Origin: Rhizobium sp. SL86
GTDB taxonomy: Bacteria; Pseudomonadota; Alphaproteobacteria; Rhizobiales; Rhizobiaceae
Length of the DNA: 64,000 nucleotides
Assembly: GCF_026672545.1 (NCBI RefSeq)
Contig: NZ_JAPPRJ010000005.1
Coordinates: 62,001 to 126,000, forward strand
Direction of reading: 5' to 3'
In this document: positions 25,825 through 54,666 of the stretch, piece by piece
Layout: each line of letters opens with the position of its first letter
How positions within the stretch are numbered: position 1 is the stretch's first letter
Notes under the pieces: generated by a model
Told to the model about the DNA's origin: nothing
Database searches by the model: none
Seen by the model: the letters and a program-made list of their open reading frames with translations, nothing else
Made by a program: the position numbers and the translations under genes

Positions 25825-26186
25825 CCGAGGTGTAGAACTCGGCCTGGTTCGGGCTTTCAAGAGCGTTCAGCTCCTGGCCGATCAGGCGGAAGGCTTCATT
25901 CCACTCGATAATCTGGTAGCGATCGATGCTTGCGTCATAGATCAGCGGGTGTGTGAGGCGCCCCTGGTTCTCAAGCTCGTGATCGGTCCAATTCCACATC
26001 TCGGCAACGGTGTGGTCGGCAAAGAAATCGGGGCCGACGCGCTTGGCGGTGGATTCCCAAGTGATCGCCTTGGCACCGTTTTCGCAGAACTCGAAAGATG
26101 ACGTATGCGTTGGGTCAGGCCAGGCGCAGCCGGGACAATCGAAACCTTCGGGCTGGTTCGCCTTCAAGAGGGTGGCCGTTCCCTGA
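25825..26186 (-). pseudogene. Internal fragment of a YdeP/FdhF-like molybdopterin oxidoreductase
   Basis: On the minus strand the sequence TLLKANQPEGFDCPGCAWPD begins a recognisable piece of the FdhF/YdeP-type formate dehydrogenase-like alpha subunit. It carries the CPGC cluster-like motif, then SFEFCENGAKAITWEST and RYQIIEWNEAFRLIGQEL. It stops at the IS21 right end (25824); the family is about 760 aa, so only about 115 residues survive. Its 5' end is joined to the truncated 6-phosphogluconate dehydrogenase gene. Confidence 0.75.
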
Positions 26187-27494
26187 GCGACGATAGGTGT
26201 CGAAGTAGGAGAGCGCCGAGGCCAGCGCCGGGACCGGCAGGCCGGACAGGACTGGATGGGCAACCACGCGGCGAAGTGCCCCGTCGGTTTCCTTGACCAT
26301 GGCGGCAAAGGCCGGCGTGACGACGAGGTTCGCCACATCAGGATCCTTGGTAAAGGCCGCGGTGATCTCGTCAAGGAACTGCGAGCGGATGATGCAGCCG
26401 GCGCGCCAGATATTGGCGATCGTCGGCATGGGCAGCGACCAGTTGAACTCTTCCGAGGCCGAGGACATCACGGCAAAGCCCTGCGCATAGGCCGCAATCT
26501 TGGCAGCGAGCAGCGCGTTCTCGAGATCGGCGATGAAGGCGGCCTTGTCCTTAGGCGCCTCCGGCAGTCCCGGCAGGCCGAAGAGCTTTTCGGCAGCGAT
26601 ACGCTCTTCGCGCAGCGAGGAAAGCACGCGGCCGGCAACCGCGGCCTCGATTCCGGATGCAGCAACCGCGAGGTTCTGCGCCTCGATGGCCGACCACTTG
26701 CCTGTGCCCTTCTGGCCGGCAGAATCGACGATCACGTCGACCATCGCCTTGCCGGTTTCCGGATCGGTGGCCTTCAGCACCTTTTCGGTGATCTCGATCA
26801 GGTAGGAGTTGAGGCGGCCCTTGTTCCACTGACCGAAGATGTCGCCGATTTCGGCAGCCGACATCTTGAGGCCGTCGCGCAGGATACCGTAAATCTCGGC
26901 GATCATCTGCATGTCGGCATATTCGATGCCGTTATGGATCGTCTTGACGAAGTGACCTGCGCCATCGGTGCCGAGCCAGGCAACGCAAGGTTCGTCGTTG
27001 AACTTGGCCGCGATCGAGGTCAGCACCGGCTCGACGCGCTTCCAGCTCTCTTCCGTGCCGCCAACCATGATCGAGGGACCGTGGCGGGCGCCTTCCTCGC
27101 CACCGGACACACCCATGCCGATAAAGGTCACGTCGGTTCCGGCGAGCTTTTCGAAGCGTGCAACCGTGTCGCGGAAATTGGCATTGCCGGCATCGATCAT
27201 GATGTCGTTTTTGGCGAGATGCGGCAGAAGGGCTGCCATCTGCTGGTCGACGGCCTCGCCGGCCTTGATCATGATGATGATCGGGCGCGGCGGACGGATG
27301 GCGGCGACAAACTCTTCAATCGTATGGCAACCGATGATCTGGCCGGCCAGATCCCCGGCTTCCCCGAGGAATTCATCCGTGCGCGCCGGCGTCCGGTTGA
27401 AGACCGCGATGCGATTGCCTTTCTCGGCAATGTTGAGCGCCAGATTTGAGCCCATGACTCCGAGACCGATCAGTCCGATTTCCGCTTGCTGCAT
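26115..27494 (-). pseudogene. gnd: 6-phosphogluconate dehydrogenase with a replaced C-terminus
   Basis: The first 436 residues are a normal decarboxylating 6PGDH: NADP motif IGLIGLGVMGSNLALNIAEK, catalytic-region motifs GMGVSGGEEGARHGPS and KTIHNGIEYADMQMI, and SAGQKGTGKW. After LSYFDTYRR (about 26187) the frame runs into about 23 foreign residues. In a neighbouring frame the DNA continues as GTATLLKANQPEGF, where gnd should read a RGTANL-like segment. So the gene lost one base and its last 30-40 codons by joining to the YdeP fragment. The C-terminal tail of 6PGDH reaches into the partner active site, so activity is doubtful. No good ribosome site is seen before 27494. Confidence 0.8.
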
Positions 27495-27521
27495 AATGCC
27501 TATCTCAATTTCTCAGCGCGA

Positions 27522-28320
27522 TCAGAACGCAAGCTGAACTTTCATGGATTGGGTTCGATCTCCGGCAATATCGAAGGCGCGCACGGCCTCATCAATCGGA
27601 TAGACCCCCGTGAGGAGAGGCGAGAGATCAACTCGACGTCGGTTGATCAGATCAACTGCCAATCCAAACTCTTCGTGGAATCGGAACGTGCCCTTAAGTT
27701 CGATCTCTTTTGTCACCACCATGTTCTGCGGGAAGGAGATGTCGCCCCCTAGACCCAGCTGCACCAGGGTCGACTGCGGCCGGAGCGCTTCCAGCCCCGA
27801 GAGCATGGCACGCTCGTTGCCGGAGGCCTCGAACTGCACATCGAAGTAGCCCTTGTTCGCAGCATAGTCTGAAAGTCGTTCAGGGTTCTCGGCACTGTTG
27901 ATCACACGATCGGCGCCCACCTTCAGCGCCTTTTTCAGTACCTCGTCCATCACATCTGTCGCGACGATCTCGCTAGCCCCATGGGCGCGTGCGGCAATGA
28001 TCGCAAGCGCCCCGATCGGGCCGCAGCCCGTGACCAGCACGCGTTTGTTGGCCAAGGATCCCGAGCGCTTTACCGCATGCAGTGCCATGGCAAAAGGTTC
28101 TGCCATGGCTGCCTCATAGATGGGTATCCCATCATCGACCGGATGGCACTGCCAAGCTTCCGCGACCAGTCGTTGACGGAAGGCTCCCTGGATGTGCGGC
28201 ATTGGCATAGCCGAACCATAAAAGCGCATGTTGCAGCAATGGTTCTGCTTACCTTCGAGGCAGTAGTCACATTCATTGCAGGGGCGGCTCGGCGAAATCG
28301 CGACACGATCGCCGATCGGT
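27522..28320 (-). pseudogene. idnD: L-idonate 5-dehydrogenase-like zinc dehydrogenase, N-terminus lost
   Basis: About 266 codons of a medium-chain zinc dehydrogenase remain, from IGDRVAISPSRPCNECDYCL (structural zinc cysteines) through VLVTGCGPIGALAIIAARA (NAD-binding) to the end. The order and motifs fit L-idonate/sorbitol-type dehydrogenases. The first 70-80 residues, with catalytic zinc ligands, are replaced by the IS6-family element whose end is at 28321, so the protein is dead. It lies upstream of gnd in the same direction, as expected for an idonate/gluconate operon. Confidence 0.78.
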
Positions 28321-29133
28321 GGCGTCGCCTTAACCGAGTTCGAGTCGCGGCAACACCCTTTGGTCTGATTTTCACGCTGCAATCGACAAAGCGATTTCCC
28401 GCCAGGTCGAGAAGGCGTGAGCACGAAGCTGGCGATGGTCTGCGGCGGACAGGAATTTCCGGTGAAGAAGAAAAAGATTGGCGATCTGGCCGTGAGTTGA
28501 GACAAAACGCTGACATTGCCGCGCGGACTTGAAGCGCATCATGCGTCGCTCTCGTCGTCGCACAGCAAGATGAGAGTTCTCGGCGCGATTGTTCAATCCC
28601 TTGTGCGAGCGGTGCTCGACGCCCGGCATCAACTCCGACTTTGCAGCCGAATAGGAACGCAGCTTGTCGGTCACCATCACGCGCGGGGCGCGGCGCTGGC
28701 TCTTGAGCAGCTTGCGCATCAAACGCAGCGCGGCCGCCTTGTTTCTTCGGCCTTGCAACAGGGCATCAAGGACATAACCGGTTGCATCGACGGCGCGCCA
28801 CAGCCAGTATTTCTTACCCTTGATCGTTACCACCATCTCATCAAGCTGCCACTTGTCGGCAAAGTGGCCACGCGAGCGCCGGCGGAGCTGTTGAGCGAAC
28901 CTCAGGCCGAATTTCGCCGCCCATTCCGAGACAGTCTGGAACGAGACGTTAATGCCGCGCTCGGCCAGCAGATCTTCGACGTCGCGTAAGCTGAGCGGAA
29001 ATCGGAAATACAACCATACCGCATGGGCGATGATCTCGGCTGGAAAGCGATGGCGTCTATAGCGGGTGGGCGGGGCTTCAGTCATGTAGACACATTATCG
29101 TGCCAATCAGCATTGATCGGTTAAGGCGACGCC
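28321..29133 (-). mobile_element. IS6-family insertion sequence
   Basis: An 813-bp element with perfect 16-bp terminal inverted repeats: ggcgtcgccttaaccg (28321-28336) and cggttaaggcgacgcc (29118-29133). It encodes one DDE transposase. Flanking octamers (cgatcggt / atccggtc) do not match, so the present site was formed by a deletion or cointegrate event, not a simple insertion; this is common for IS6 elements. Confidence 0.85.
28372..29085 (-). CDS. IS6 family DDE transposase
   Basis: A 237-aa transposase. It has an N-terminal zinc-less HTH region (SLRDVEDLLAERGINVSFQT), the first catalytic Asp in DKWQLDEMVVTIKGKKYWLW, the second in VMVTDKLRSY and the Glu in LNNRAENSHL. Length and spacing match IS6-family members. 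The frame is intact. Confidence 0.9.
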   Translation of the reverse strand: MTEAPPTRYRRHRFPAEIIAHAVWLYFRFPLSLRDVEDLLAERGINVSFQTVSEWAAKFGLRFAQQLRRRSRGHFADKWQLDEMVVTIKGKKYWLWRAVDATGYVLDALLQGRRNKAAALRLMRKLLKSQRRAPRVMVTDKLRSYSAAKSELMPGVEHRSHKGLNNRAENSHLAVRRRERRMMRFKSARQCQRFVSTHGQIANLFLLHRKFLSAADHRQLRAHAFSTWREIALSIAA

Positions 29134-29881: not shown

Positions 29882-30781
29882 TTAGCCTCCATCGCTTGGC
29901 TGACCGATCCCGTAGCGATCAAGAATCTCACGGATCTTCTCGTCCTGCACCGGATCCGGCAGAAGTGCCGGCTGCCGGCTGGCGCCTACGGACGCATCCT
30001 GCAGGTAAAGCGCACGCTTGACCATGGCGGGCGCAAAGCCCAACGCATAGAGGTCGGTACGAAAAGCGGTATAAATAGCCTGCTGCCGTTCGGCTTCAGC
30101 CATATCACCGCGATTGAAGCCGGCCAGAATGCCGGCAAGCACCTGCGGCAGCGCGTTGCCGAGGCCTGAAATGCAGCCGGCGGCGCCATTTTGCAGGGAC
30201 CAGAGAACAAGGTGGTCCGGTCCGGAATAGACTTCGAAGCCCGGCACATCCCGCGCAACCTGCAGATAGGCTTCGAGCGTCTGCTGTGCTCCACCGGAAT
30301 CCTTGATGCCGGCAATATTGCCGTGGCCCGCCAGATGCCTGGCCGTTTCCGGTTCGATGTGGTTCTGCGTGCGAGCCGGGATGTCGTAGAGATAAACAGG
30401 CGTATCGACGGCATCGGCGACGGTCGAAAAGTGACGAATGAGACCATCCTGCGTGCAGGCGATAAAGAAGGGCGTGATCACCGCGATCCCGTCCACACCA
30501 ATCCGATCGAATTCCCGGGCAAGCTTCAGCGTCTCGAATGTCGCCGGCATGCCGGCATTGACGATCACCTGTGCCTTGCCGGAGACCTCGTCCACCACTT
30601 CTTCCGTCAACCGCACCTTTTCCTCGAAGGTAAGGGCCGTGAAGTCACCATTGGTGCCGGCACACATGATATTGTTGCCGGCGGCCACCTGACGGCGCAC
30701 CTGCGCCCGCGTCGCTTCAAAATTGATGGTCTCGTCTTCGTTGAAGCACGTGACGAGGGCCACGAAGGCTTTTGCGGACAT
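29882..30781 (-). CDS. Dihydrodipicolinate synthase/N-acetylneuraminate lyase family aldolase
   Basis: A 299-aa class I TIM-barrel aldolase. The Schiff-base lysine is Lys160 (NIAGIKDSGG) and the catalytic tyrosine Tyr132 (VYLYDIPART). The carboxylate-binding loop is GTNGDFTALTFEE, where DapA proper has GTTGE; this points to a catabolic sugar-acid dehydratase or aldolase, not lysine synthesis. It is the last gene of the leftward ABC operon. The ATG at 30781 follows GGAG by seven bases and leaves four bases after the ATPase gene. A KDG-aldolase/dehydratase-like or sialic-acid-lyase-like reaction is likely. Confidence 0.85.
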   Translation of the reverse strand: MSAKAFVALVTCFNEDETINFEATRAQVRRQVAAGNNIMCAGTNGDFTALTFEEKVRLTEEVVDEVSGKAQVIVNAGMPATFETLKLAREFDRIGVDGIAVITPFFIACTQDGLIRHFSTVADAVDTPVYLYDIPARTQNHIEPETARHLAGHGNIAGIKDSGGAQQTLEAYLQVARDVPGFEVYSGPDHLVLWSLQNGAAGCISGLGNALPQVLAGILAGFNRGDMAEAERQQAIYTAFRTDLYALGFAPAMVKRALYLQDASVGASRQPALLPDPVQDEKIREILDRYGIGQPSDGG

Positions 30782-30785
30782 GATG

Positions 30786-32420
30786 CTACTCCATTGACAA
30801 GGGGGACGGCGATGCCGCGCGGCGGGCACGATGGCTGGCCTGGACATCCGGATCGGGATCGAGGCTGGCAGCGAGCAGAGCTTGCGTATAGGCCTCGCGG
30901 GGTGCTTCGAAGATCTGGCGGACTCCGCCCAATTCGACGATACGGCCCTTCCGCATCACCATCACCTGGTCGGCAAAATCGCGCACCACCGGCAGATCGT
31001 GGGCAATGAAGATGAAGGAGATGCCGGTTTCCTGGCGAAGCCTGTCGAGAAGTTCGATGACCTGCGCCTGAACGGAAACGTCCAGCGCGGAAACCGCTTC
31101 ATCGCAGATGATCAGGCGCGGCTCCAGCGCCAGGGCACGCGCGATGGCGATCCGCTGGCGCTGGCCGCCGGAAAACTGGTGCGGATAGCGCCGCATGTGG
31201 TCGGGTGACAGCCCCACCTGCTGCAGGAGTTCGGCAACCCGCTCCCGCCACCTGCTCCGTGGCAGAATGTCCGGATGGATCACCCAGGCTTCAGAAATCA
31301 GCTGGAAGACCGTCATGCGTGGGTTGAGCGACTGGCTGGGATCCTGGAAGACCATTTGCAGGTCGCGCCGGAGACGGTAAAGTTCCCTGGGCGGCAGGCG
31401 GAAAAGGTCCCTGCCCTGCCACAGCGCAGAGCCGGTATCCGGCTCTTCCAAGCGCAGCAGCACACGGGCCAATGTGGACTTGCCAGAACCGCTTTCGCCG
31501 ACAATCGCCAGCGTCTGGCCGGCCATCAGGTCGAACGAAACGCCCCTCAGCGCCTCGAATGCGCCGTAGCTTTTGCGCACATCGCGCACCCGCAGCAGAA
31601 CGTCACCCTTCTGATCGTCTTCATGCATCGCACCCCGACCAGGGGCGGCCGCGATCAGCTTTCGCGTATAGGGATGCTTCGGGTTCCTGTAGACATCGCC
31701 AACCGTGCCGCTTTCGACCAGCGCACCCTTTTCCATGACGACCACCCGGTCGGCAATCTCTGCCACGACGCCGAGGTCGTGGGTGATGATCAGCACGCCC
31801 ATGCCGATCTCCCGCTGCAATTCCTTCAGCAGCGCCAGCACTTCGGCCTGTACCGTCACGTCAAGCGCGGTCGTCGGTTCATCAGCGATAAGGAGATCGG
31901 GCCGGAGCGCAAGCGCCATGGCGATCATCACGCGCTGGCGTTGCCCGCCGGAAAACTGGTGCGGATATTTCTTGAGAGCGATCTGTGGATCGGCAATACC
32001 GACGCGTCCGAGCAATCGGAGTGCTTCCGCCTCGGCTGCTTCGCTCTGAAGTCCGTGTGTGGTCATCGCCTCGCGGATCTGCCAGCCGACGGTATAGACC
32101 GGATTGAGGTGGCTGAGTGGATCCTGGAAGATCATGGCAATGCGCTTGCCGTTCACCTCCCGGCGCTCCTGCGGCCTCATCGTCAGCAGATCCACCCCAT
32201 CGAGATAGATTTCGCCGGAAGTGATCCGGCCGGGCGGCGTGTCGATGAGGTTCATGATGGCTGCCGACGACACGGATTTGCCGGAACCGCTTTCACCAAG
32301 GATGGCAAGTGTTTCGCCGCGATCCAGATGATAGAAGATATTGCAAACGGCCTTCACGACACCGGCTGCGGTGTGGAATTCGACGGACAGGTCACGGACG
32401 TCAAGCAGATGCTCAGCCAC
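30786..32420 (-). CDS. Dipeptide-type ABC transporter, fused double ATPase
   Basis: A 544-aa protein made of two ABC ATPase domains, DppD-like then DppF-like, as in GsiA. Each half has its own Walker A (GESGSGKS, near 40 and 310), signature (FSGGQRQR) and Walker B ([24 protein letters not shown]), and oligopeptide_HPY-type tails. It energises the two permeases encoded upstream. It overlaps the DppC-type gene by eight bases. Confidence 0.93.
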
Positions 32421-33342
32421 GGGTTTCCCCCCTCATTTCGAGCCGCCAGCGCTGCGTCGGGTCGAGCGCGATGCGCAGCCAGTTCGACAGTAGATTGAGC
32501 GACAGCGTGGTGAAAATGATGGCAAGCCCCGGCCAGAAGGACAGCCACCAGGCATTGGTGAGATACTGGCGCCCCTGCGAGATCATCAGGCCCCAGGTGA
32601 TGTCCGGCGGCTGGATGCCGATGCCGAGGAAGGAGAGCGCGCTTTCCGCCAGCATGACATAGGCGAAATCCAGCGTCGCAAGCGTGGTAAGCGTCGGGAA
32701 GACGATCGGCAGGATGTGCCGGAAAAGAATGCGCCGGCTGGAGGCGCCCATCACGCGGGCGGCCTGCACGAACATCCGCTCGCGGATTTCCAGAACCTCC
32801 GCCCGGGTCGTGCGTAGATAGACCGGGATGCGGGTGATCGACAGGACCAGCATCAGATTGAGGATCGATGAACCCAACAGGTAAAGGACGATCACGGCGA
32901 TCAGCAGCGAAGGAAATGACATGATCACGTCCGCCAGACGCATGATCGCCTGACTGACACGCGGTGACGAAAATCCGGCCAGCAGACCGAGAAACGTGCC
33001 GATGACCGCCGAAATGAGGACGGCACCTGCGGCCACCAGCAGCGTATTCTGCGTCGCAACGATGATGCGGGCAAGAAGAGGACGACCAAGCGCATCCGCA
33101 CCGAACCACCAGAACCAGTCGCGCGACCAGTCGAATGGCGCAAGATTGCGGCCGCGCAGGTTCTGCTTGAGCGCCTCCTCTCCCAGCCAGGCAGGCCCGA
33201 CTATCGCAAGTACCACCATGACCACCAGGAACACGGCCGCCACCAGCGCAAACTTGTCGGCAAGCAGCATCCGTCCCATGCGGCGAAGGAAAGCCGGCTC
33301 GTCGGCAGAAAGGCTATCGGTGCGGGTGGACGAAACGGTCAC
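32413..33342 (-). CDS. Dipeptide-type ABC transporter permease (DppC)
   Basis: A 309-aa inner-membrane permease. It has an N-terminal cytoplasmic lead and first helix (LVAAVFLVVMVVLAIVGPAW), then five further segments. The EAA loop that docks the ATPase is EIRERMFVQAARVMGASSRR. Typical DppC ending includes WGLMISQGRQYL. It lies 12 bases after the DppB-type gene and overlaps the ATPase gene. Confidence 0.92.
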   Translation of the reverse strand: MTVSSTRTDSLSADEPAFLRRMGRMLLADKFALVAAVFLVVMVVLAIVGPAWLGEEALKQNLRGRNLAPFDWSRDWFWWFGADALGRPLLARIIVATQNTLLVAAGAVLISAVIGTFLGLLAGFSSPRVSQAIMRLADVIMSFPSLLIAVIVLYLLGSSILNLMLVLSITRIPVYLRTTRAEVLEIRERMFVQAARVMGASSRRILFRHILPIVFPTLTTLATLDFAYVMLAESALSFLGIGIQPPDITWGLMISQGRQYLTNAWWLSFWPGLAIIFTTLSLNLLSNWLRIALDPTQRWRLEMRGETRG

Positions 33343-33354
33343 GGTCTTCCCTCC

Positions 33355-34269
33355 TCAGTGGCGAATGCGCGGATCGAGCAGGGCATAGGCGAGATCGATC
33401 AGCAGATTCATGAAGAAAATCGCAAGTGCCGTCACGAGGATGGCGGCGAGAACCACGTTGAAATCCCGCTGCAGGATGGAATCGATCATCAGCTTGCCGA
33501 CGCCTGGGAAGCCGAAAATGGTCTCGACGACCACCGCACCGTTGAGCAGGCTGGCCGCCTGGTCGCCAATGACGGTGATGACGGGCAGCATGGCGTTGCG
33601 CAGGGCGTGGATGAAGATGATTGGCCCGGAGCGCACGCCTTTCGCCCGCGCCGTCTTCACATAGGCTGAGGACAAAGCTGTGATCATCGATCCGCGCACG
33701 ACCTGGACGATGATGCCGAAGGGGCGCACGAACAGGACCGCGATCGGCAGGACCCAATGGGCCAGTGACCCTGTGCCCGAGGTCGGCAACACGGCAAGAT
33801 TGATCGAGAAGATGACGATGGCCACGATGGCGAGCCAGAAATCCGGCACGGATGCGCCGATCAGCGACAGCATCGACGCGGCGCGGTCGAAAAAGCCACC
33901 GGCGCGAAATGCCGCCAGCGACCCGACGACGATGGCAGCGCAGGTCACGAGGCTCATCGTGGTGACCGCGAGCCACAGCGTCCAGACGAAGGCCTCCAGA
34001 ACGACATCCAGCGCCGGACGCGCCTTGCGATAGGACTCACCAAGGTCGCCGGTCAGCACGTCGCCCACATAGCGGCCAAACTGCACCAGCATAGGGTCGT
34101 TCAACCCATGCAGTTCACGAAACTGCTGCTTCATTTCGGCCGATGCCTCGACCGGCAGGAAAAGCGAGGCAGGATCGCCGGTCATGCGGGAGAGAAAAAA
34201 CACCATCACGATCAATCCGACCAGCGAGAATAGGCTGGCGACGGATCGCTTGCGGATGAACGTGAGCAT
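33355..34269 (-). CDS. Dipeptide-type ABC transporter permease (DppB)
   Basis: A 304-aa permease with the DppB opening (IRKRSVASLFSLVGLIVMVF), a large periplasmic loop containing QFRELHGLNDPMLVQFGRYV, and the EAA loop YVKTARAKGVRSGPIIF. Six transmembrane segments are predicted. It forms the translocation pore with the DppC-type protein. It follows the binding-protein gene after a 90-base gap holding a strong hairpin. Confidence 0.92.
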   Translation of the reverse strand: MLTFIRKRSVASLFSLVGLIVMVFFLSRMTGDPASLFLPVEASAEMKQQFRELHGLNDPMLVQFGRYVGDVLTGDLGESYRKARPALDVVLEAFVWTLWLAVTTMSLVTCAAIVVGSLAAFRAGGFFDRAASMLSLIGASVPDFWLAIVAIVIFSINLAVLPTSGTGSLAHWVLPIAVLFVRPFGIIVQVVRGSMITALSSAYVKTARAKGVRSGPIIFIHALRNAMLPVITVIGDQAASLLNGAVVVETIFGFPGVGKLMIDSILQRDFNVVLAAILVTALAIFFMNLLIDLAYALLDPRIRH

Positions 34270-34289
34270 GATCGACCTCCCAAAGTTGC

Positions 34290-34314
34290 CGGCGGCGGGT
34301 TAACCCCGCCGCCG
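34290..34314 (-). terminator. Intra-operon GC-rich hairpin after the binding-protein gene
   Basis: Arms cggcggcggg (34290-34299) and cccgccgccg (34305-34314) with a five-base loop form a very stable stem. It has no T run and sits between the substrate-binding gene and the permease genes. Such stems stabilise the upstream mRNA or cut read-through, so that binding protein is made in excess of permease. Confidence 0.55.
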
Positions 34315-34359
34315 CACGGTCCTGGATGCCTGACGGATATCCAGTGGTCCGCCGCTGAC

Positions 34360-35871
34360 TTACTTGATGCCGATTTCCGAGAGTTGCAGCATCGAATTCG
34401 TCGCAATCGTCGGCTTGAAATCCAGCCGTTCGGAGACACGGGCATAGCCCACCATGTGGAAGAGCAGCACGTCCGCCACCACATCGTCATGAAGATAGGC
34501 GATCAACTGAGACCACAATTTTGCCCGCTCTTCACCGACGGCTGCGGATGCCCGCTGGATGAGATCGTCCACCTTCGGATCGGAGAAGCCGGATTGCGTG
34601 CCCTTTGAGGCATATTTGAAGAACATCGAGAAGGACGGGTCACCCTTGGAATTGTCGTGCATGGCGGCCACAAGTTGCGGCCCGCGGCCTTCCTTGAACG
34701 GCTTCGAGTAATAGGTTTCGTGCTCGGCCACCTCAACGAACTTCAGCTCGATATTGAAGCCGACATCCTGCAGTTGTGCTTGGATGGCCTCCATGATTTC
34801 CGTGACGTTCGGGAAGTTGGCACTGCGGGCAATGATGGTGATCGGCGTATCGACCGGCGCGCCTGCCGCCTTCGCTTCCGCCAGAAGCTTCTTGGCAGCC
34901 TCGGGATCAAAGGGAAACTGCTTGACATCCGGGTTCCAGCCCAGCGTCGTCGGCGGGACCAGGGCGGTTGCAAGAACGGCACCTTCCGGAACCAGCGTTC
35001 CGAGGAAGGCCTTGCGATCGATGGCAAGATTCAGCGCCTTGCGGACCCTGACGTCATTCAGCGGCGGGATATTCTGGTCGATGCGGAGATAGACGGTTTC
35101 GCTGTCGAGATAAGAAAAGTCCGTCTTCGGGTTCGTCGCATCCATCTGCGAGATCGAAGGAGAGAGGTCCGCCTCGCCTGTCTGCACCATTGCTGCGCGC
35201 ACCGAAGGATCGGCGCGGAACAGATAGGTGGCTTTTGTCACGCTCGGCTGCTTGCCCCAATAATCGGCCCGGTTTTCCAGAACGATATATTGTCCCGGCG
35301 TCCAGTTCGTCAGTTTGTAAGGCCCGGTACCGATCGGTTCGCGCACGAACTGCATGGGCGTGCTTTCCGGAACGATCGTCACCAGCGACATCAGCAGCGG
35401 CAGGATCGGCTGAACCGGATTGACCTTGATGTCGATCGTGTTGTCATCGACGACTGCAGCGTTCACCGTCATGCCGCCGAAATAGCGCTTCGACTCACAA
35501 GTCACCTTGTCACTCATCACGCGATCGATGCTGTGCTTAACGTCCTTCGCACCAAACGCACTACCGTCCGAGAACTTGACGCCCTTGCGCAGATGGAAGC
35601 GCCAGCTTCCATCTGAATTTTGTTCCCACTTTTCCGCAAGACGCGGCATGACCCCCTGCTTACCGCGGACATCCAGTTCCGTCAGCGTCTCGCTGACATT
35701 CTCCATGATGATACGACCGATATTGGACCGGGTCGCCATGCAGGGTTCCAGAAGATCGGCCTCCTCGGGAAGCACGATCTTAATCGGCCCGGAACCCGCC
35801 AGCGCGGGCGACAGGCTCGACAACAATGCGGCGCCAACCATCAAGGCACCAGAAATCAAGGATCTCGTCAC
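34360..35871 (-). CDS. ABC transporter solute-binding protein, family 5
   Basis: A 503-aa extracytoplasmic peptide/opine/nickel-type binding protein. A Sec signal (VTRSLISGALMVGAALLSSL, cut near ALAGSG) is followed by the SBP_bac_5 domain with LAEKWEQNSDGSWRFHLRKG and VRKALNLAIDRKAFLG. The start is GTG at 35871, chosen because GGAGGAG is six bases upstream and a signal peptide follows. The longer ATG frame adds 53 charged residues. It is the first gene of the leftward operon, so its ligand (probably a sugar acid or glycoconjugate) defines the transporter. Confidence 0.9.
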   Translation of the reverse strand: MTRSLISGALMVGAALLSSLSPALAGSGPIKIVLPEEADLLEPCMATRSNIGRIIMENVSETLTELDVRGKQGVMPRLAEKWEQNSDGSWRFHLRKGVKFSDGSAFGAKDVKHSIDRVMSDKVTCESKRYFGGMTVNAAVVDDNTIDIKVNPVQPILPLLMSLVTIVPESTPMQFVREPIGTGPYKLTNWTPGQYIVLENRADYWGKQPSVTKATYLFRADPSVRAAMVQTGEADLSPSISQMDATNPKTDFSYLDSETVYLRIDQNIPPLNDVRVRKALNLAIDRKAFLGTLVPEGAVLATALVPPTTLGWNPDVKQFPFDPEAAKKLLAEAKAAGAPVDTPITIIARSANFPNVTEIMEAIQAQLQDVGFNIELKFVEVAEHETYYSKPFKEGRGPQLVAAMHDNSKGDPSFSMFFKYASKGTQSGFSDPKVDDLIQRASAAVGEERAKLWSQLIAYLHDDVVADVLLFHMVGYARVSERLDFKPTIATNSMLQLSEIGIK

Positions 35872-36204
35872 GTCATACTCCTCCCAAGTTGAGACGTATC
35901 GCCATGTTCTACCGGCAGACCACCATGTCCTGAAGAGGTGCGCCGCGCGGACCGCTTGTGCTGATGGCCGACCCAGACTCCCCGCCGACCGGCCATGCGG
36001 TTCATGGCGCAACCATCTTCTTTCCGACAAAGTTTGTCAATTTATTTCCAATCATGATCTCGAAAGAAATTTATAATCCGAATTAAATTGTTTTACTTCA
36101 ATGGTTTATTCTTATGTTCAATGACATTTTTCCGAGCACAAAATATCATAAAAACTTGACAACTTTGAAAATTCGGCAATCCTCGCCCGTGAGAGGAGAG
36201 CCTT
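35872..36204. promoter_or_regulatory. AT-rich divergent promoter region
   Basis: This 333-base gap separates the leftward ABC operon from the rightward sialidase operon. Its centre (about 36035-36165) is much richer in A+T than the surrounding genes and contains TTGTCAA (36034-36040) and CTTGACAAC (36155-36163). These resemble half-sites for the FCD-GntR regulators coded nearby. A GAGAGGAGAGCC ribosome site precedes 36205. Confidence 0.45.
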
Positions 36205-37401
36205 ATGACACCTGAAGACATAGCCAGCGGCATGACCGGCGCGATCAATGCGGCGCGCGCAACTCGCCGGGAAGCGCTTCTGCCATCGCCCATGGTGCAG
36301 AACCACGCGAGCTTCCTGCATGCGACAAAGGATGGCGCGCTGCTCTGTGCCTGGTTCGGCGGTTCGCTGGAGGGAAAGTCAGACATCTCGATCTATGCAA
36401 GCATCCTCCCATCCGGTGCAGAGTCCTGGGGCCCGGCCCAGCAATTGAGTTTCGATGCAGCGCACTCGGAACAGAACCCGGTTCTGTTTTCCGCACCGGA
36501 TGGTCGCCTGGTTCTGTTTCACACCTCCCAGCCCTCCGGCAACCAGGATGAGTGCCGCATCCGCATGGCGGAGGTCCACCGCGATCCCGCCGACCCGACG
36601 CGGTTGACGACAGACGAAGGCCGTTATCTCGACCTGCCTCGCGGCTGCTTCATCCGCGCGCCGCTGGTGCTGCGAGATGATGGAGCCTGGCTCCTGCCGA
36701 TCTTCCGTTGCGTGCAACGAGCCGGCCAGAAGTGGAACGGAAGCCATGACGTAGCGGCCGTCGGCGTCTCGTCGGACGATGGAAAGAGCTGGATGTTGAA
36801 TGATCTGCCACACTCGATCGGCTGCGTCCATATGAGCCCGATCTTGCTGGATGGACAGCGGCAGGCGGCATTCTTTCGGCGCCGCCAAGCCGATTTCGTC
36901 TACCGGACGGACAGCATAGATGGCGGGCGCACCTGGTCGCCGCCGCAACCGACCGATGTTCCGAACAACAATTCCTCGATCGCCGTCATTCGATTGAATG
37001 ATGGGCGGATCGCGATGATCTGCAATCCGGTCAATGCGGCAGCCTCGGCCGACAGACGAGCATCGCTATACGACGAACTCGGCGTGGACGACGATCGCCC
37101 GGATGCTGATCCGACCGGCGGCTGCATCCCGGTCTGGGGCGTGCCGCGAGCACCGGTTGCAGTTTGCCTGTCCGAAGACGGCGGGCTGAGCTTCCCGCTC
37201 CGCATTCTGATCGAAAACGGGCCGGGCACCTGCCTGTCGAATGATTCAACGGATGGACGCAATCAGGAAATGTCCTATCCATGGCTGCTCGAAGATGCCG
37301 ATGGCGGGCTTCACATCAGCTATACCTACCACAGACGCGCGATCAAATACGTCCATCTTGCCCCCGGCTGGGCAAGCACTGCACAGGAGAGACAGGCATG
37401 A
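36205..37401 (+). CDS. Sialidase-like beta-propeller protein
   Basis: A 398-aa protein of the sialidase/BNR superfamily. Asp-box motifs are visible at [21 protein letters not shown] and [10 protein letters not shown], and the N-terminus has [11 protein letters not shown] with [12 protein letters not shown]. There is no signal peptide, so it should act in the cytoplasm, on something brought in by the transporter. Genuine sialic acid hydrolysis is not shown; unsaturated or acid-sugar-linked glycosides are possible. It overlaps the PdxA-like gene by four bases (ATGA). Confidence 0.8.
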
Positions 37402-38354
37402 GCAGGATCATCGGCATTACCATGGGTGATCCATGCGGCGTCGGACCGGAGATTACGGTACGTGCGCTGTCGGACATGCCGGATGAAGAGCGGGCGCTGA
37501 CCCGCATCTACGGCAATCGCGAAACGCTGGAGGCGGCCCGCTCGGCCCTCGGCGTTTCCATCGACCTTGCCCCTTACGTGGTGGATCTCCCGGTCGAGGG
37601 CGCGCCGATCGCTTGGGGAACGCTGTCTCCGGTTGCCGGCGATGCAGCCTTCCGCTTCATTGAGAAGGCCGTGCGGGATGCTGAAGCCGGTTCGATCGGC
37701 TGCATCGTCACGGCTCCGATCAACAAGGAGGCGCTGAACCTGGCTGGCCATCATTACGACGGGCATACCGGAATGCTGCGCAGCCTCACCGGATCTTCCG
37801 CCGCCTACATGCTGCTCGCTTCGGACCGGTTGAAGGTCATCCATGTCTCGACACATGTTTCGCTGCAGGAGGCCATCCGGCGCGCCACCACTGATCGTGT
37901 GCTTGCTACCATCCGGGCCGGCGACCGGCATTTGAAGCGTATCGGCTATGAGCGCCCGCGCATCGCCGTTGCCGGCATCAACCCGCATTGCGGCGAGAAC
38001 GGCCTGTTCGGCACTGAGGACGATGATCAGATCGCACCCGCGGTCGCGGCCGCGCGTGCAGAAGGCATCGACGTCCACGGACCGATTTCGGCCGACACCG
38101 TCTTCCACCGCGCCTATTCCGGCGCCTTCGACCTTGTGGTTGCCCAGTATCACGACCAGGGACACATCCCGATCAAGCTGGTCGCCTTCGATACCGCCGT
38201 CAACGTCTCGGTAGACCTGCCGATCGACCGCACTTCCGTCGATCATGGCACGGCCTTCGATATTGCCGGCAAGGGAATCGCCAACCATGGCAACATGCTG
38301 TCTGCCATTGCGTATGCGCGCAGACTGGTCGCCGGTCGAGACGGCAAGGAGTAA
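37398..38354 (+). CDS. PdxA-like 4-phospho-sugar-acid dehydrogenase (PdxA2 type)
   Basis: A 318-aa PdxA-family NAD-dependent dehydrogenase. The start motif [14 protein letters not shown], the metal-site regions YDGHTGML and [17 protein letters not shown], and [13 protein letters not shown] are characteristic. PdxA2 paralogues work with DUF1537 kinases to oxidise and decarboxylate 4-phospho-D-threonate or D-erythronate to dihydroxyacetone phosphate. A DUF1537 kinase is coded three kilobases away, so this role is preferred over vitamin B6 synthesis. The ATG at 37398 overlaps the preceding stop. Confidence 0.87.
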
Positions 38355-38357
38355 CCA

Positions 38358-39476
38358 ATGGCCATCGTTCCGATCACCATTCATCAGCCTCGTCAGCTTG
38401 CCATCGGCGCGGGCACCGTTGCAACTGTCGGGTCCTGGGCAGGCGATGTCGGCACGACGCTGGTGATTGCCACACCAATCACGGCGGCTTTCGTCGAACG
38501 GTTGCAACTCTCTGGCCGCATCCGCATCTTTGACGCCATTCCTGGCGAACCGGATATCGCGACCCTCGACGCCGCCCTCTCGGCTGCGCGCGCGGAGAAG
38601 CCTGATCTCGTCGTCGGGCTTGGCGGCGGCTCCGTGATGGATGTGGCGAAACTCGTCGCAGCACTTTGGGATAGCCAGCAGACACTTACCGAAGTGGCCG
38701 GCCCGAACCGCGTGACAGGCCGTACCACCCGCCTGGCGCAAGTGGCAACGACAGCCGGAACCGGATCGGAGGCCGGTATCCGCTCTTTGATCACCTATCC
38801 CGCCAAGGGCAGCAAGATCGCCGTCGAGAGCCCGCACCTGATTGCGGATCTGGCGGTTCTGGACCCGGAATTGACCTATTCGGTTCCGCCTGCCGTGACC
38901 GCGGCAACCGGTGTCGATGCCATGGCGCATTGTGTGGAGGCCTTCACCAATCGCCGCGCACACCCCATGATCGACGGGTTTGCCCGGATGGGGATCCAAC
39001 TGGTCGGGCGTTACCTTGCCCGCGCAGTCAACGACGGCAGCGATACGGAAGCGCGTGAGGGTATGATGCTCGCCTCCTACTACGGCGGCATCTGTCTCGG
39101 CCCGGTCAACACGGCGGCAGGTCATGCCATCGCCTATCCGCTCGGCACGCTGCTGCATCTTCCGCACGGCCTGGCGAACGCCATCGTCTTTCCGCACGTG
39201 CTGTCGTTCAACCAGCCAGCCGTGCCGGGCAAGACGGCGGAGATCGCACAGGCGCTCGGCTTCGGCAGTGACCTGAACCAGCAAAGGCTTCGGGAAGCCG
39301 CCTACGGCTACTGCACGAACCTTGGCATCGAGATGGCATTGTCCAGCCACGGCGCACAGAGAAGCGACATTTCGCGTTTTGCCGCCGATGCCCACGCCAT
39401 TCGCCGTCTCATGGATAACAATCCCATCGACATGTCGCTCGACGATGTCGTCGCAATCTATGAGGCTGCTTTCTGA
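38358..39476 (+). CDS. Iron-containing alcohol dehydrogenase
   Basis: A 372-aa type III (Fe) alcohol dehydrogenase. The NAD-binding GGGSVMD motif is at about 90-95, TTAGTGSEA follows, and metal ligands lie in GVDAMAHCVEAF and HGLANAIVFPHVL. Family members reduce or oxidise lactaldehyde, propanediol, maleylacetate or sugar-acid carbonyls. It begins three bases after the PdxA-like gene, so it belongs to the same operon and probably handles an aldehyde or alcohol intermediate. Confidence 0.88.
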   Translation: MAIVPITIHQPRQLAIGAGTVATVGSWAGDVGTTLVIATPITAAFVERLQLSGRIRIFDAIPGEPDIATLDAALSAARAEKPDLVVGLGGGSVMDVAKLVAALWDSQQTLTEVAGPNRVTGRTTRLAQVATTAGTGSEAGIRSLITYPAKGSKIAVESPHLIADLAVLDPELTYSVPPAVTAATGVDAMAHCVEAFTNRRAHPMIDGFARMGIQLVGRYLARAVNDGSDTEAREGMMLASYYGGICLGPVNTAAGHAIAYPLGTLLHLPHGLANAIVFPHVLSFNQPAVPGKTAEIAQALGFGSDLNQQRLREAAYGYCTNLGIEMALSSHGAQRSDISRFAADAHAIRRLMDNNPIDMSLDDVVAIYEAAF

Positions 39477-39498
39477 AGGCGGATGACGCCCCGCGTCG

Positions 39499-39518
39499 CC
39501 GCGGCATCAGTCCCGCGG
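39499..39518. terminator. Possible hairpin between convergent genes
   Basis: Short arms ccgcgg (39499-39504) and ccgcgg (39513-39518) lie over the junction of the converging Fe-dehydrogenase and GntR genes, partly inside the GntR 3' codons. The stem is short and has no T run. Confidence 0.3.
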
Positions 39519-40214
39519 CGGCGACTGGAAGAGACGTTCGCGCGATCCGGTCAGATGATCGTGCATCAACTGGCGCGCCCTCTCCGGCTCGCGAGCCGCA
39601 ATGGCTTCGGCAATCGCTTCGTGCTCCGCGAAGACACGCGACAGGCCGGACGCTTCTCGTTTGACCGAAGCACCATGAAACTTCATGCCCACAGCAATGT
39701 GGTCCTTGAGGGCTTCCATCGCGGTATAGAAATAATTGTTTTGCGCAGCACGGGCGATCGCCAGATGAAATTGGTAGTCGGCGTCTTCCCGGTGTGACTG
39801 ACGGTTCGTGGCATCGCGCAACAGTTCCAGCGCATGGCGGATGGCAAGAAGGTTCCCGCCATCGTGACGCAGCGCTGCGGATGCCGCAGCGGCCGGTTCC
39901 AACGTCAGGCGGAACTCGTAGCAGTTCAGCAGGTCAGCCACGTTCTCCAGTTGGCCGAAGCCGAGTGGCTCCTTCAACCCGAGAGCCCGCACGAAACTGC
40001 CCGCACCGCGTCTCGAATAGATCAGACCCTGATCGCGCAGACGTCGGAGAGCCTCCCGAATGACGGGGCGCGAAACTTCGAATTCGGCAGCCAGGTCGTG
40101 CTCGGTGGGCAGGCGCTCGTCGGGCTTGTAGGCGCCGGACTTGATCGCCCGGTGCATCCGCTCGAACACGATATCCGGCAGCGCCTTGCGCGCCGCACCG
40201 TCTGTCAGCCCCAT
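39507..40214 (-). CDS. GntR family regulator, FCD (FadR-like) subfamily
   Basis: A 235-aa repressor-type protein. The N-terminal winged HTH (about 12-75) includes RLPTEHDLAAEFEVSRPVIR and GLIYSRRGAGSFV. The C-terminal all-helical FCD domain has RLTLEPAAAASAAL and metal-binding histidines in the DYQFHLAIARAAQ region. FCD proteins sense sugar acids and other carboxylates. Its gene starts one base after the DUF1537 kinase stop, so the two are co-transcribed; it likely controls this acid-sugar island. Confidence 0.9.
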   Translation of the reverse strand: MGLTDGAARKALPDIVFERMHRAIKSGAYKPDERLPTEHDLAAEFEVSRPVIREALRRLRDQGLIYSRRGAGSFVRALGLKEPLGFGQLENVADLLNCYEFRLTLEPAAAASAALRHDGGNLLAIRHALELLRDATNRQSHREDADYQFHLAIARAAQNNYFYTAMEALKDHIAVGMKFHGASVKREASGLSRVFAEHEAIAEAIAAREPERARQLMHDHLTGSRERLFQSPPRD

Positions 40215-40215
40215 C

Positions 40216-41244
40216 TCAGTCCGTCTTCCCGAGAATTGTCGTTGCGATGTCCGTCAGCGTATTCGGTTGCCCGAAACCGCCTGATTTTGCAATGATGCAG
40301 TGCCTGCCGCTCTGCGCAAGACCGAGGCCCGGCAGGCACTCCCCAAGCAGGCGCAACCGATGGATGCCCATCCGGTGCAGAACCGCTTCGGCTGTGGCGC
40401 CGCCACACAGGAGCAAAGTCTCCACCTGATCGGTCAGCCGCGGCACAACGCCGTCAGCGAGTCGACGGGAAACTTCCTCCGCCGAACAGGTGCCCTGCCC
40501 CTCGACAACTCGAACAAGAGTGACCCTATCCGCGATCTTCGCAATATTCGTCAGGCACCCATTTTCGGCACGACGATCATCGATGTCCGCCGCCTTGGTT
40601 AGGTGATCTATCTGCTGCAGCGTGATGGGATCGCGCGAGCCGATGACAAAAAGGGCCCGTCCTGCGGGGATTTCCGCCGCAGCTCGCTGTTGTCTGCCAC
40701 TCCACGTTTTCGCAAGCGCTTCAGCAAGACCGCGTGCACCGACCAAGAGATCAACACCCGCTTGATCGCCCTGTGCGACAGCTTCATCCATGTCCGCCTG
40801 GGATACCGTATCCGGAATAAGGCATTTGACGGCGTGGCGACCAAGCGAAGTCGCGATGTTGATGGGAGTGTCCACGCCGAAACCGCAGACGGCACCGTTG
40901 CGGACGACGCGATTGAACTCCGGGATGGCTGGCGCAACCAGCGCCTGGGCAAAGGGCACGACATCCAGCAGAGCCGGCACATGTCCTTTGAGACGGGAAT
41001 CGATCTTGATGAGGAGCCTCGTGCCCGCCGGCAGCGCGCGAATGGCATCTGCCGCAACTGAACGCGTTTCCTGCTCCGTTTTCTCGCGACAGGCCAGATC
41101 CACAGATAAAACATCGGGGCGCTCGGCCAGTGCCGACGTTTGCCCTTTAGGCGTCAACGCGACTTCGGTGCGCAGCCCGCGATCGGCGAACGGCGCTGCG
41201 GAGTCGAGCGCACCCGTCAGATCATCGGCCAGAATGCAAAGCAC
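40216..41244 (-). CDS. Four-carbon acid sugar kinase (DUF1537)
   Basis: A 342-aa DUF1537 kinase. The N-terminal domain opens with the signature LCILADDLTGALDSAAPFA and contains LLIKIDSRLKGHVP. The C-terminal nucleotide-binding domain has LFVIGSRDPIT and LLLCGGATAEAVL. Known members phosphorylate D-threonate, L-threonate, D-erythronate or 3-oxo-tetronates. It is somewhat shorter than the usual 400-480 aa but both domains are present. With the PdxA-like dehydrogenase it suggests a tetronate branch ending in dihydroxyacetone phosphate. Confidence 0.87.
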   Translation of the reverse strand: MLCILADDLTGALDSAAPFADRGLRTEVALTPKGQTSALAERPDVLSVDLACREKTEQETRSVAADAIRALPAGTRLLIKIDSRLKGHVPALLDVVPFAQALVAPAIPEFNRVVRNGAVCGFGVDTPINIATSLGRHAVKCLIPDTVSQADMDEAVAQGDQAGVDLLVGARGLAEALAKTWSGRQQRAAAEIPAGRALFVIGSRDPITLQQIDHLTKAADIDDRRAENGCLTNIAKIADRVTLVRVVEGQGTCSAEEVSRRLADGVVPRLTDQVETLLLCGGATAEAVLHRMGIHRLRLLGECLPGLGLAQSGRHCIIAKSGGFGQPNTLTDIATTILGKTD

Positions 41245-41637
41245 GCTTCATCCTCAACTTTGTTGTTATCTATTACTACCGAGAAAAATTCTATTTTTCA
41301 ATTTGATAATTCCAACTGATTGCAAATTATGCGCCGTGAAAGATTGGAAAAAACACCCGAAGTCTGCGACACAGACATCGGTTTCGACGCATGAAGTACG
41401 TCTCTCAGGCTACGCAACAGAGCAATGACAGACGTAGGTGAGCGCCTTCTATCCAAGGAACTTCCTTGGCAGGCAGCGCGACGCAATCCACTTCGTCAGC
41501 CAACACACAACGAAACCTCTTCGGCACAGCCTTATCCGGCATTATCTGTATTACAGATTTGACAAGATACCAGGATAATGATTAAACTTATCTGACATGT
41601 ATCGCTCTGCTGTCCTGGTAGGCAAATAGGAATACCG
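41245..41637. promoter_or_regulatory. Divergent regulatory region with repeated GACA-TATC motifs
   Basis: A 393-base gap between the leftward kinase gene and the rightward enolase-superfamily gene. No gene is visible. Near the rightward start two related sites occur, atttgacaagatac (41557-41570) and atctgacatgtatc (41590-41603), good candidates for GntR operators. The kinase side is AT-rich (41260-41330). Confidence 0.5.
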
Positions 41638-42786
41638 ATGATCATTACCGATGTCTCCGTGCGGCGGTTCCGCACCACCACGCGCCGTCATTCTGACAGC
41701 GCCGGCCATGCACATCCCGGCCCGCCGCATCAGGTCGAACAGGCCCTGCTGACCATTCGAACAGAAGACGGACACGAAGGTCATTCCTTTACGGCGCCGG
41801 AAATCGTCCGTCCGCATGTCATCGAAAAATTCGTCAAGAAGGTTCTGATCGGCGAGGATCACAGGGATCGCGAGCGGCTGTGGCAGGATCTTGCCCACTG
41901 GCAGCGCGGTTCGGCGGCGCAGCTGACCGACCGCACGCTCGCCGTCGTCGATTGCGCATTGTGGGATCTGGCCGGACGCGCGCTCGACACACCTGTATAC
42001 AAGTTGATCGGAGCCTATCGCGACAAGGTCCTTGCTTACGGGTCGATCATGTGTGGCGATGAGTTGGAAGGCGGGCTTGCGACACCGGAGGATTACGGCC
42101 GCTTTGCCGAGACGCTCGTCAAGCGCGGTTACAAAGGCATCAAGCTGCACACCTGGATGCCGCCGGTTAGCTGGGCACCGGATGTGAAGATGGACCTGAA
42201 GGCCTGCGCTGCGGTTCGTGAGGCCGTCGGGCCCGATATCCGGCTGATGATCGATGCCTTCCACTGGTATTCGCGCACCGATGCGCTGGCGCTTGGCCGC
42301 GGGCTGGAAAAGCTCGGCTTCGACTGGATCGAGGAGCCGATGGATGAGCAGTCCATGTCCTCCTACAAATGGCTGGCGGATAATCTCGACATTCCGGTGG
42401 TCGGTCCGGAAAGTGCGGCCGGCAAACACTGGCACCGCGCCGAATGGGTGAAGGCAGGCGCCTGCGATATCCTGCGCACCGGCGTCAACGATGTCGGCGG
42501 CATCACGCCGGCACTGAAGACCATGCGCATGGCGGAATGTTTCGGCATGGACTGCGAGGTGCACGGCAATACCGCCATGAACCTGCATGTGGTCGCCGCC
42601 TCCAAGAACTGCCGCTGGTACGAGCGCGGCCTGCTGCATCCCTTCCTAGAATACGATGACGGCCACGATTACCTGAAATCTCTATCCGACCCGATGGATG
42701 CCGATGGCTACGTGCATGTACCGGACCGACCAGGTCTCGGCGAGGAGATCGACTTCGACTTCATCGAGAACAACCGGATCGGATGA
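41638..42786 (+). CDS. Enolase-superfamily (mandelate racemase-like) sugar-acid dehydratase
   Basis: A 382-aa protein with the capping domain and modified TIM barrel of the mandelate racemase subgroup. Magnesium ligands are Asp206 (LMIDAFHW), Glu232 (IEEPMD) and Glu258 (GPESAA). Catalytic candidates are the K169-x-H171 pair (GIKLHTW) and His309 (EVHGNT), with Asp285. The second position of the K-x-K motif is His here. Such enzymes dehydrate aldonates or aldarates, or cycloisomerise their lactones. It leads an operon with an SGNH esterase and a second transporter binding protein. Confidence 0.85.
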   Translation: MIITDVSVRRFRTTTRRHSDSAGHAHPGPPHQVEQALLTIRTEDGHEGHSFTAPEIVRPHVIEKFVKKVLIGEDHRDRERLWQDLAHWQRGSAAQLTDRTLAVVDCALWDLAGRALDTPVYKLIGAYRDKVLAYGSIMCGDELEGGLATPEDYGRFAETLVKRGYKGIKLHTWMPPVSWAPDVKMDLKACAAVREAVGPDIRLMIDAFHWYSRTDALALGRGLEKLGFDWIEEPMDEQSMSSYKWLADNLDIPVVGPESAAGKHWHRAEWVKAGACDILRTGVNDVGGITPALKTMRMAECFGMDCEVHGNTAMNLHVVAASKNCRWYERGLLHPFLEYDDGHDYLKSLSDPMDADGYVHVPDRPGLGEEIDFDFIENNRIG

Positions 42787-42792
42787 CGTGCC

Positions 42793-43422
42793 ATGAAAAC
42801 GATCCTGGCCTTTGGGGACAGTCTGACCTGGGGCGCCGATCCGGCCACGGCCCTTCGGCATCCGCCAGAATTTCGCTGGCCGGACGTTCTGGGACGGGAG
42901 CTTGGCGGCGAGGTACGCGTCATCGGCGAAGGGCTCGGCGGGCGCACTACCTGCTACGACGATCATACCGGCCCGAGTTGCCGCAACGGTGCCAAGGCGC
43001 TTCAGGTCGCCCTCGCCAGCCATATGCCACTCGACCTCGTCATCATCATGCTCGGCACCAATGATCTGAAGCCGGTCTTTGGGGGACAGGCGGAACCAGC
43101 CGTCTCGGGCATGCGCCGGCTGGCTCAGATCGTCGAGACCTTCCCCTACAAACCGAGGACGGCCATCCCGCGATTGTTGATCGTGGCGCCGCCACCGTGC
43201 GTGGCCGGTCCTTCCGGCACGCCGGCCGCCGGTCGCAGGATCACAGAATCTGCTCGGCTTGCCCCGCTCTACGAAGCACTCGCGGCAGAACTTGGCCATG
43301 CGTTTTTCGATGCGGGCACTGTCGCGCAGGCCTCGCCGATCGATGGCGTTCACTTGAGTGCCGAGGACACGCAGGCCATCGGGAAGGCGCTTGCTGCGCC
43401 AGTCAGGACCATTTTTGCCTGA
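42793..43422 (+). CDS. SGNH/GDSL-type esterase
   Basis: A 209-aa single-domain SGNH hydrolase. The four blocks are present: Ser in AFGDSLTWG (residue about 10), Gly in LGGRTT, Asn in MLGTNDLK and Asp/His in PIDGVHLS. Arylesterase and acetyl-sugar esterase activity are common in this group. There is no signal peptide, so it acts in the cytoplasm, possibly removing an acyl group or opening a lactone before the dehydratase step. It lies six bases after the dehydratase gene. Confidence 0.88.
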   Translation: MKTILAFGDSLTWGADPATALRHPPEFRWPDVLGRELGGEVRVIGEGLGGRTTCYDDHTGPSCRNGAKALQVALASHMPLDLVIIMLGTNDLKPVFGGQAEPAVSGMRRLAQIVETFPYKPRTAIPRLLIVAPPPCVAGPSGTPAAGRRITESARLAPLYEALAAELGHAFFDAGTVAQASPIDGVHLSAEDTQAIGKALAAPVRTIFA

Positions 43423-52900: not shown

Positions 52901-52941
52901 CCGATAAGCATCGCCAACTGGCGCGGTGTCTCGTAAATTGT

Positions 52942-53885: not shown

Positions 53886-53918
53886 GGGGTCGGAACAAGA
53901 TTTGCGTGAAATCGTACG

Positions 53919-54512: not shown

Positions 54513-54666
54513 GGGGTCAATTTCGTCCGAATAGGCTGTCCGAAATATCTTCTCTGTCCTAAATCCTGTCAAGATAATTTGTGGACAGGGTGCTTTACGC
54601 CTGTACGCAATCGACCGTTTTCGGACAGAGGATCGGCCACCCAGCGCGTACTAAAGGAGTGAAACG
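54513..54666. other. Putative res site of the Tn3-family transposon
   Basis: The 154-base gap between divergent resolvase and transposase genes holds several tgtcc/ggaca half-sites: tgtccgaaat (54537-54546), ctgtcc (54554-54559), ggacag (54592-54597) and ttcggacag (54620-54628). This is the layout of a resolvase binding site overlapping both promoters. The transposase ribosome site AAGGAG ends the gap. Confidence 0.6.

Follow-up and report, generated by a model that had tools for sequence, protein, structure and literature searches.

The stretch of DNA analysed here (the window; 64,000 nucleotides of Rhizobium sp. SL86, contig NZ_JAPPRJ010000005.1, positions 62,001 to 126,000) contains a cluster of transport and catabolic genes around a sialidase-like enzyme, and an original prediction had read its positions 29882..43422 as a possible new acid-sugar pathway. 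All genes named in that prediction are intact open reading frames (ORFs) that match their stated families in the ORF list and profile searches, and they lie in two adjoining units, unit A (29882-41244) and unit B (from 41638 on). On the minus strand, unit A encodes a DHDPS/NanA-fold class I aldolase of type I (29882..30781; PF00701 E 8.5e-53; the ORF extends to 30847, with Met23 as its likely start), a two-domain ABC ATPase of DppDF type recognized by profile searches (30786..32420), the ABC permeases B (32413..33342) and A (33355..34269), both taken from the ORF list, and a family-5 solute-binding protein, SBP1 (34360..35871; PF00496; ORF to 36030, likely GTG start at 35871). Divergent from these, on the plus strand, are a sialidase-fold propeller (BNR_2; 36205..37401), PdxA2 (37398..38354; PF04166 E 4.1e-99) and an Fe-dependent alcohol dehydrogenase (38358..39476; PF00465/PF25137), followed on the minus strand by a FadR/GntR-type regulator (39507..40214; PF00392 and PF07729, GntR/FCD) and a compact DUF1537 four-carbon acid sugar kinase (40216..41244; PF07005/PF17042). 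The stop of the propeller gene and the start of PdxA2 overlap in the tetranucleotide ATGA (37398-37401).

Five enzymes of unit A (propeller, PdxA2, Fe-dehydrogenase, DUF1537 kinase and DHDPS aldolase) were counted in the best 80 of at least 585 confirmed propeller relatives found on scanning bacterial and archaeal genomes (the named loci), and in 40 Rhizobiaceae loci read over up to 20 kb, two sets that overlap in part. All five occur together in 33/40 Rhizobiaceae loci and in 65/80 named loci, a frequency in the latter that argues their co-occurrence is not chance and that the predicted gene set is real. The remaining 15 named loci lack one to four of the five; nine are cut by contig ends and six are of full length. 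Across the same 80 loci we found SBP1 in 77, the Fe-dehydrogenase in 75, the regulator in 73, permease A in 72, permease B in 70 and the ATPase in 69. The propeller is carried by 69 of 394 Rhizobiaceae genomes, and the unit is present in laboratory strains, on pSymB of Sinorhizobium meliloti 1021 (around 160206-161387) and on pAt of Agrobacterium fabrum LBA645. A pSymB gene of the DHDPS family is named in an excerpt of PMC12904279 along with kinase genes, and these could not be tied to this unit.

Beyond the Rhizobiaceae, the propeller stands with DHDPS, Fe-dehydrogenase and PdxA in Pantoea ananatis, Azospirillum, a Comamonadaceae plasmid, Caballeronia, Roseomonas and Klebsiella. Azospirillum B510, Comamonadaceae and Klebsiella have an entire kinase gene, whereas it is truncated in Azospirillum TSH58, fragmented in Roseomonas and absent from view in the P. 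ananatis locus. On the Caballeronia plasmid (locus L172, 5085-7391), a 768-aa fusion inside the cluster contains both DUF1537 domains and then PdxA, and thus joins two consecutive steps. Among 246 genomes searched in one enterobacterial family, 25 bear the propeller, and 13 loci drawn from these all contain the kinase, PdxA, Fe-dehydrogenase, DHDPS, propeller and a YhcH-family gene (13/13), with a Na+ symporter in 12/13 and an SDR gene in 10/13. Three further loci of the same family were read, two of which (L183, L187) show the whole set, while the third (L182), nearly identical to P. ananatis, has no kinase nearby. Within Pectobacterium (25 genomes), 23 have the propeller and 24 the kinase, one having the kinase only and one neither, and the two genes lie within 8 kb of each other in all 23 propeller genomes, counting a propeller match in G781 that is partial at 44% and a kinase match in G795 that covers residues 99-424.

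Unit B is ordered as an enolase-family enzyme, an SGNH esterase, a second binding protein (SBP2), a protein that reads as AhpD-like from its sequence, and a second ABC system. Orthologues (at least 45% identity) of the enolase, SGNH, SBP2 or AhpD genes are found beside the propeller in 0/80 named loci and 0/40 Rhizobiaceae loci. The enolase gene is present in 15 of 199 Rhizobiaceae genomes; around it, in 11 loci of relatives, GntR2, SBP2, SGNH or the unit B permease adjoins in seven, and none of these lies within 1.5 kb in four. Genomes with both units carry them on different contigs or apart (e.g., G050, G120, G190), the closest pair being 33 kb distant in G127. The enolase-family and SGNH genes (41638-43422) are thus in a separate operon, the predicted boundary of 29882..43422 was drawn too wide, and on synteny both genes are rejected as pathway members. 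The scheme first proposed, in which the SGNH esterase would remove the acyl group of an aldonate or uronate glycoside before it is cleaved, dehydrated by the enolase-family enzyme and split, has in its favour that the genes adjoin in the window, and is scarcely credible given these absences and the lack of linkage. Because the two genes belong to another operon, deacylation and dehydration are not supported as steps of the unit A pathway; import, a cytoplasmic sialidase-fold enzyme, aldol cleavage and a kinase/PdxA tetronate branch are the parts of that scheme that we retain. The enolase gene itself (41638-42786; MR/MLE family) is nearly identical to PDB 1rvk/4hcd, presumably the Agrobacterium protein Atu3453, whose counterpart here sits in the neighbouring operon.

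For the end of the proposed route, enterobacterial clusters were tested, whose kinases pass the curated D-threonate kinase cut-off (NF047819, 450) with 493-615 bits in 5/5 and the PdxA proteins pass that for D-threonate 4-phosphate dehydrogenase (NF002891, 583) with 667-682 bits in 5/5. The L183 kinase matches a PDB 4xfm chain along its full 442 residues, differing at only a few positions; we take this structure to be the Pectobacterium protein ECA3761. The kinase of the window has both SBD_N (PF07005, 74 bits, matched over 1-125 of 230) and NBD_C (PF17042, 54 bits) over their cut-offs, and its PdxA belongs to the PdxA superfamily (TIGR00557, 348.7 against 290.35). Kinases of this type are compact, with 342 aa as compared with 411-448 aa in the enterobacterial kinases tested. 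Identity to the window's kinase is 44-59% (median 54) across 66 close loci and that of PdxA2 81-91% (median 89) across 71, so that the kinase evolves faster than PdxA2 in this group. The genome has one more pdxA and one more DUF1537 gene outside unit A, which fits a catabolic role for the unit A copies.

The aldolase has the residues of a DHDPS/NAL class I enzyme, namely the Lys, the Tyr and the pyruvate-binding loop. The Lys160 and Tyr132 of the original prediction are K182 and Y154 in the 321-aa ORF, and are the same residues if the protein starts at Met23 (~30781). The Schiff-base K182 and Y154 do not vary among the type I rows aligned, and type I also keeps the pyruvate-binding G64-T65. 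Type I forms a clade of 14 rows with support of 100, to which the proteins of the window, Pantoea, Klebsiella, Azospirillum and Comamonadaceae belong, in a tree of 33 rows made by a quick method and holding several long branches. Other Rhizobiaceae and Rhodobacteraceae clusters have instead a distant type II aldolase (~25% identity, long separating branch) that also keeps the Schiff-base Lys and the Tyr; two DHDPS lineages filling one slot suggests that the aldolase reaction is needed. Arg263 is common to both types and could bind the far carboxylate of the substrate. The window aldolase lies below the nanA equivalog cut-off (87.5 against 382 bits) and below that of NF003164 (109 against 281).

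The propeller protein has the sialidase propeller fold, with 12-20% identity to the 50 entries listed, and no signal peptide is visible in it by eye, no predictor having been used. Its Arg225 aligns with an Arg of NanB/NanC, and Arg315, Tyr358, Glu56 and His34 are invariant in 12/12 sequences; the pairing of these last four, by motif, with the sialidase set (three Arg that hold the carboxylate, a Tyr nucleophile and an Asp acid/base) is putative. Many genes of this kind in Rhizobium, Sinorhizobium, Agrobacterium and Pantoea carry the annotation ‘exo-alpha-sialidase’. A distant relative on a Rufibacter plasmid (L177, 1273-9062) lies in a SusD-type locus with an alpha-L-rhamnosidase, a sialate O-acetylesterase and another sialidase-annotated gene.

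What substrate would call for such a set? A DHDPS-family aldolase requires a 2-keto-3-deoxy acid, and since unit A contains no dehydratase, we infer that this acid would come from ketoside release of the sialidase type. To our knowledge, 3-deoxy-D-lyxo-2-heptulosarate (Dha) is the only natural 2-keto-3-deoxy acid that gives a four-carbon acid on retro-aldol cleavage. Fischer bookkeeping shows that the D-lyxo isomer leads to D-threonate after cleavage and reduction, as do two of the eight isomers in all; as a control, the same procedure gave D-arabinose from 3-deoxy-D-manno-octulosonate (Kdo), the product expected of Kdo aldol cleavage. Gene context and stereochemistry thus point to Dha and D-threonate. 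With moderate confidence at most, we suggest that Dha, which is rare among sugar acids and occurs in plant pectin, is broken down by unit A in a chain running from the transporter to dihydroxyacetone phosphate (DHAP). Another 2-keto-3-deoxy acid (Kdo, sialic acid or one of the 2-keto-3-deoxygluconate type), with the tetronate enzymes on a side branch, would accord with the sialidase fold and with NanA-like aldolase scores, though these are below cut-off; its cleavage would yield arabinose, N-acetylmannosamine (ManNAc) or glyceraldehyde, products that no kinase or epimerase of unit A could take further, and with the tetronate kinase and PdxA2 in the conserved core and the curated D-threonate identity in enterobacteria we consider it quite improbable.

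Under the Dha proposal, the ABC transporter would import a small Dha-containing saccharide, and the sialidase-fold enzyme, judged from its fold and context, would act as a ketosidase freeing Dha inside the cell. The DHDPS-family aldolase would split open-chain Dha into pyruvate and D-threuronate, whose aldehyde the Fe-dehydrogenase would reduce to give D-threonate. The DUF1537 kinase would then phosphorylate C4 of D-threonate, and PdxA2 would oxidise and decarboxylate D-threonate 4-phosphate to DHAP and CO2, two steps that are established for DUF1537/PdxA pairs and are transferred to unit A on the strength of the shared gene set. If both dehydrogenases use NAD(H), the route would be redox-neutral at the cost of one ATP. 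In enterobacteria the chain would be unchanged, with a Na+ symporter and an anomerase of the YhcH family taking part. Their YhcH-family proteins score 93-111 bits, under the sialate-anomerase cut-off of 160 (NF040884) and over the YhcH/YjgK/YiaL subfamily cut-off of 45.5, in 5/5; an excerpt of PMC8141875 describes an Escherichia coli protein of this family that hands the open form of sialic acid to the aldolase.

Dha occurs in plants only in rhamnogalacturonan-II (RG-II) and resembles sialic acid, according to parts of PMC12168206, which also note that standards for it are lacking. The only direct link to pectin in our data comes from a Streptomyces plasmid (L158, 7914-11418), where the gene of a propeller relative of 34% identity comes after a peptide-type ABC system and DHDPS, overlaps a DUF5060/apiosidase/DUF5605 gene and lies near GH28; the stretch read contains neither PdxA2 nor a kinase. 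Apiose is one of the sugars of RG-II. The window genome has three copies of GH28, an unspecific trait, and pectin genes are absent among the neighbour proteins read: 10 enterobacterial ones, six of L183 and four of L184, the last from another family.

Several findings weigh against the Dha proposal. The window's kinase has D-threonate kinase as its best NCBIfam match at only 92 bits (cut-off 450), and its PdxA reaches 305 bits on NF002891 (cut-off 583), so that the assignment of D-threonate to the window depends on the shared gene set and not on score. No kinase was seen near two P. ananatis-like loci (L156, L182), and a relative at 25% identity (G723, L186) has none of the set. The PF13204 apiosidase is absent from the window genome, and its association with the propeller among the 394 Rhizobiaceae genomes is weak (15/69 against 42/325; one-sided p = 0.049, uncorrected for kinship); we set this co-occurrence aside as support. 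Streptomyces excepted, no pectinase lies beside the propeller in the annotated stretches, most Rhizobiaceae flanks having been compared only with the window's genes. Within the propeller, profile alignments with NanB/NanC place His209 at the position of the sialidase Glu that is the catalytic partner of the nucleophile, a position held by Gln in the two most distant relatives, and His34 presumably takes the place of the first Arg of the sialidase triad.

This altered catalytic residue also speaks for the nearest rival, in which the propeller is not a ketosidase and acts on an imported free acid (a lactone, an acid in the wrong anomeric form, or one that is 2,x-anhydro or 2,3-unsaturated), converting it into free cyclic or open acid for the aldolase, with the rest of the chain the same. 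A Na+ symporter, as present in 12/13 enterobacterial loci, would suit a small free acid no less well than a saccharide, and only symporter, propeller and SDR are kept together in two Pantoea plasmid loci and in one genome locus of the window's order, two of these three with YhcH; both observations also count against the Dha proposal. E. coli YjhC converts anhydro- and unsaturated sialic acids, as an excerpt of PMC7315737 reports. Yet a YhcH-family protein is already present in 13/13 enterobacterial clusters, and Tyr358, Arg225 and Arg315 are retained, as would suit ketoside hydrolysis. Larger solutes are often imported by ABC systems of family 5, and we regard this rival as unlikely.

A further possibility is that the unit imports and degrades an opine-like or peptide-linked tetronate derivative and the propeller hydrolyses another bond. 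SBP1 does belong to the peptide/opine family and distantly matches proteins that bind agrocinopine. The transporter, however, differs between clusters (the core may have a family-5 ABC importer, a sodium:solute symporter or another system nearby) and the enzymes remain constant, so its family says little on the substrate, and with no amidase or opine oxidase in the core this possibility appears very improbable.

The regulation of unit A may involve a conserved motif, TTTGNCAAA, which is exact in 48 of 71 upstream regions of the propeller (divergent SBP/propeller) and present with at most one mismatch in 68/71, as compared with 1/71 in shuffled sequence and only 8/71 before the kinase. The window copy, TTTGTCAAT (36033..36041), lies in the divergent SBP1/propeller region and may be the site of the FadR/GntR regulator, a candidate operator. 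A near-match to the shared palindrome before the enolase gene (41558) also resembles a -35 box, and so has no bearing on the boundary between the units.

Elsewhere in the window, ORF sequences alone indicate an IS21-like pair at 23414-25692 and, at 26115-29085, a gene resembling 6-phosphogluconate dehydrogenase that runs, together with a truncated dehydrogenase of the idonate/sorbitol type, into a transposase ORF. On the same basis, 51625-58251 is a mobile-element patch with a resolvase (53919-54572), several transposase ORFs, among them a Tn3-like transposase spread over two, and part of an LLM-type monooxygenase; a longer gene of the latter kind comes next, at 58924-60018.

More tentatively than the substrate itself, we propose unit A as the first complete Dha route, with an intracellular sialidase-fold ketosidase whose altered catalytic set would make it a new glycosidase family, a C7 ulosarate aldolase and a threuronate reductase feeding the D-threonate pathway, distributed in Alpha-, Beta- and Gammaproteobacteria of which many are plant-associated. 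The absence of any described pathway with this set, as originally claimed, agrees with our search, since we found neither a Dha breakdown route nor a description of this pathway in the open-licence PMC literature, among the matches listed; the excerpts of PMC6353982 and PMC5811610 do not describe Dha breakdown. If true, the proposal would identify where D-threonate for its pathway comes from in nature, account for the many ‘exo-alpha-sialidase’ genes of the four genera named above, whose substrate is unexplained, and provide enzymes for a pectin sugar.

Compared with GH33 sialidases, the propeller has His209 where these have the catalytic Glu and, judged by motif, His34 at the site of their first Arg, and it has no visible secretion signal. 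The E. coli nan pathway (NanA, YhcH) has in common with unit A the DHDPS-family aldolase, the YhcH family in its enterobacterial form and a ulosonate logic; unit A differs in lacking a ManNAc kinase and epimerase and in having a tetronate kinase, PdxA2 and a sialidase-fold protein inside the cell. We know of no described intracellular Dha catabolism. The Bacteroides RG-II system of Ndeh et al. (2017) reportedly includes a GH143 Dha hydrolase, BT1020, that acts outside the cytoplasm; the bond proposed for the propeller, ketosidic Dha, is the same, whereas the propeller would act inside the cell. We are also aware of no described D-threonate source of this kind. DUF1537 (DtnK) and PdxA2 are said by Zhang et al. 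(PNAS, 2016) to convert D-threonate to DHAP and CO2, and the clusters described here share this kinase and PdxA2 tail, to which they add the sialidase-fold enzyme, the DHDPS aldolase and the Fe-dehydrogenase, frequently together with a protein of the anomerase family.

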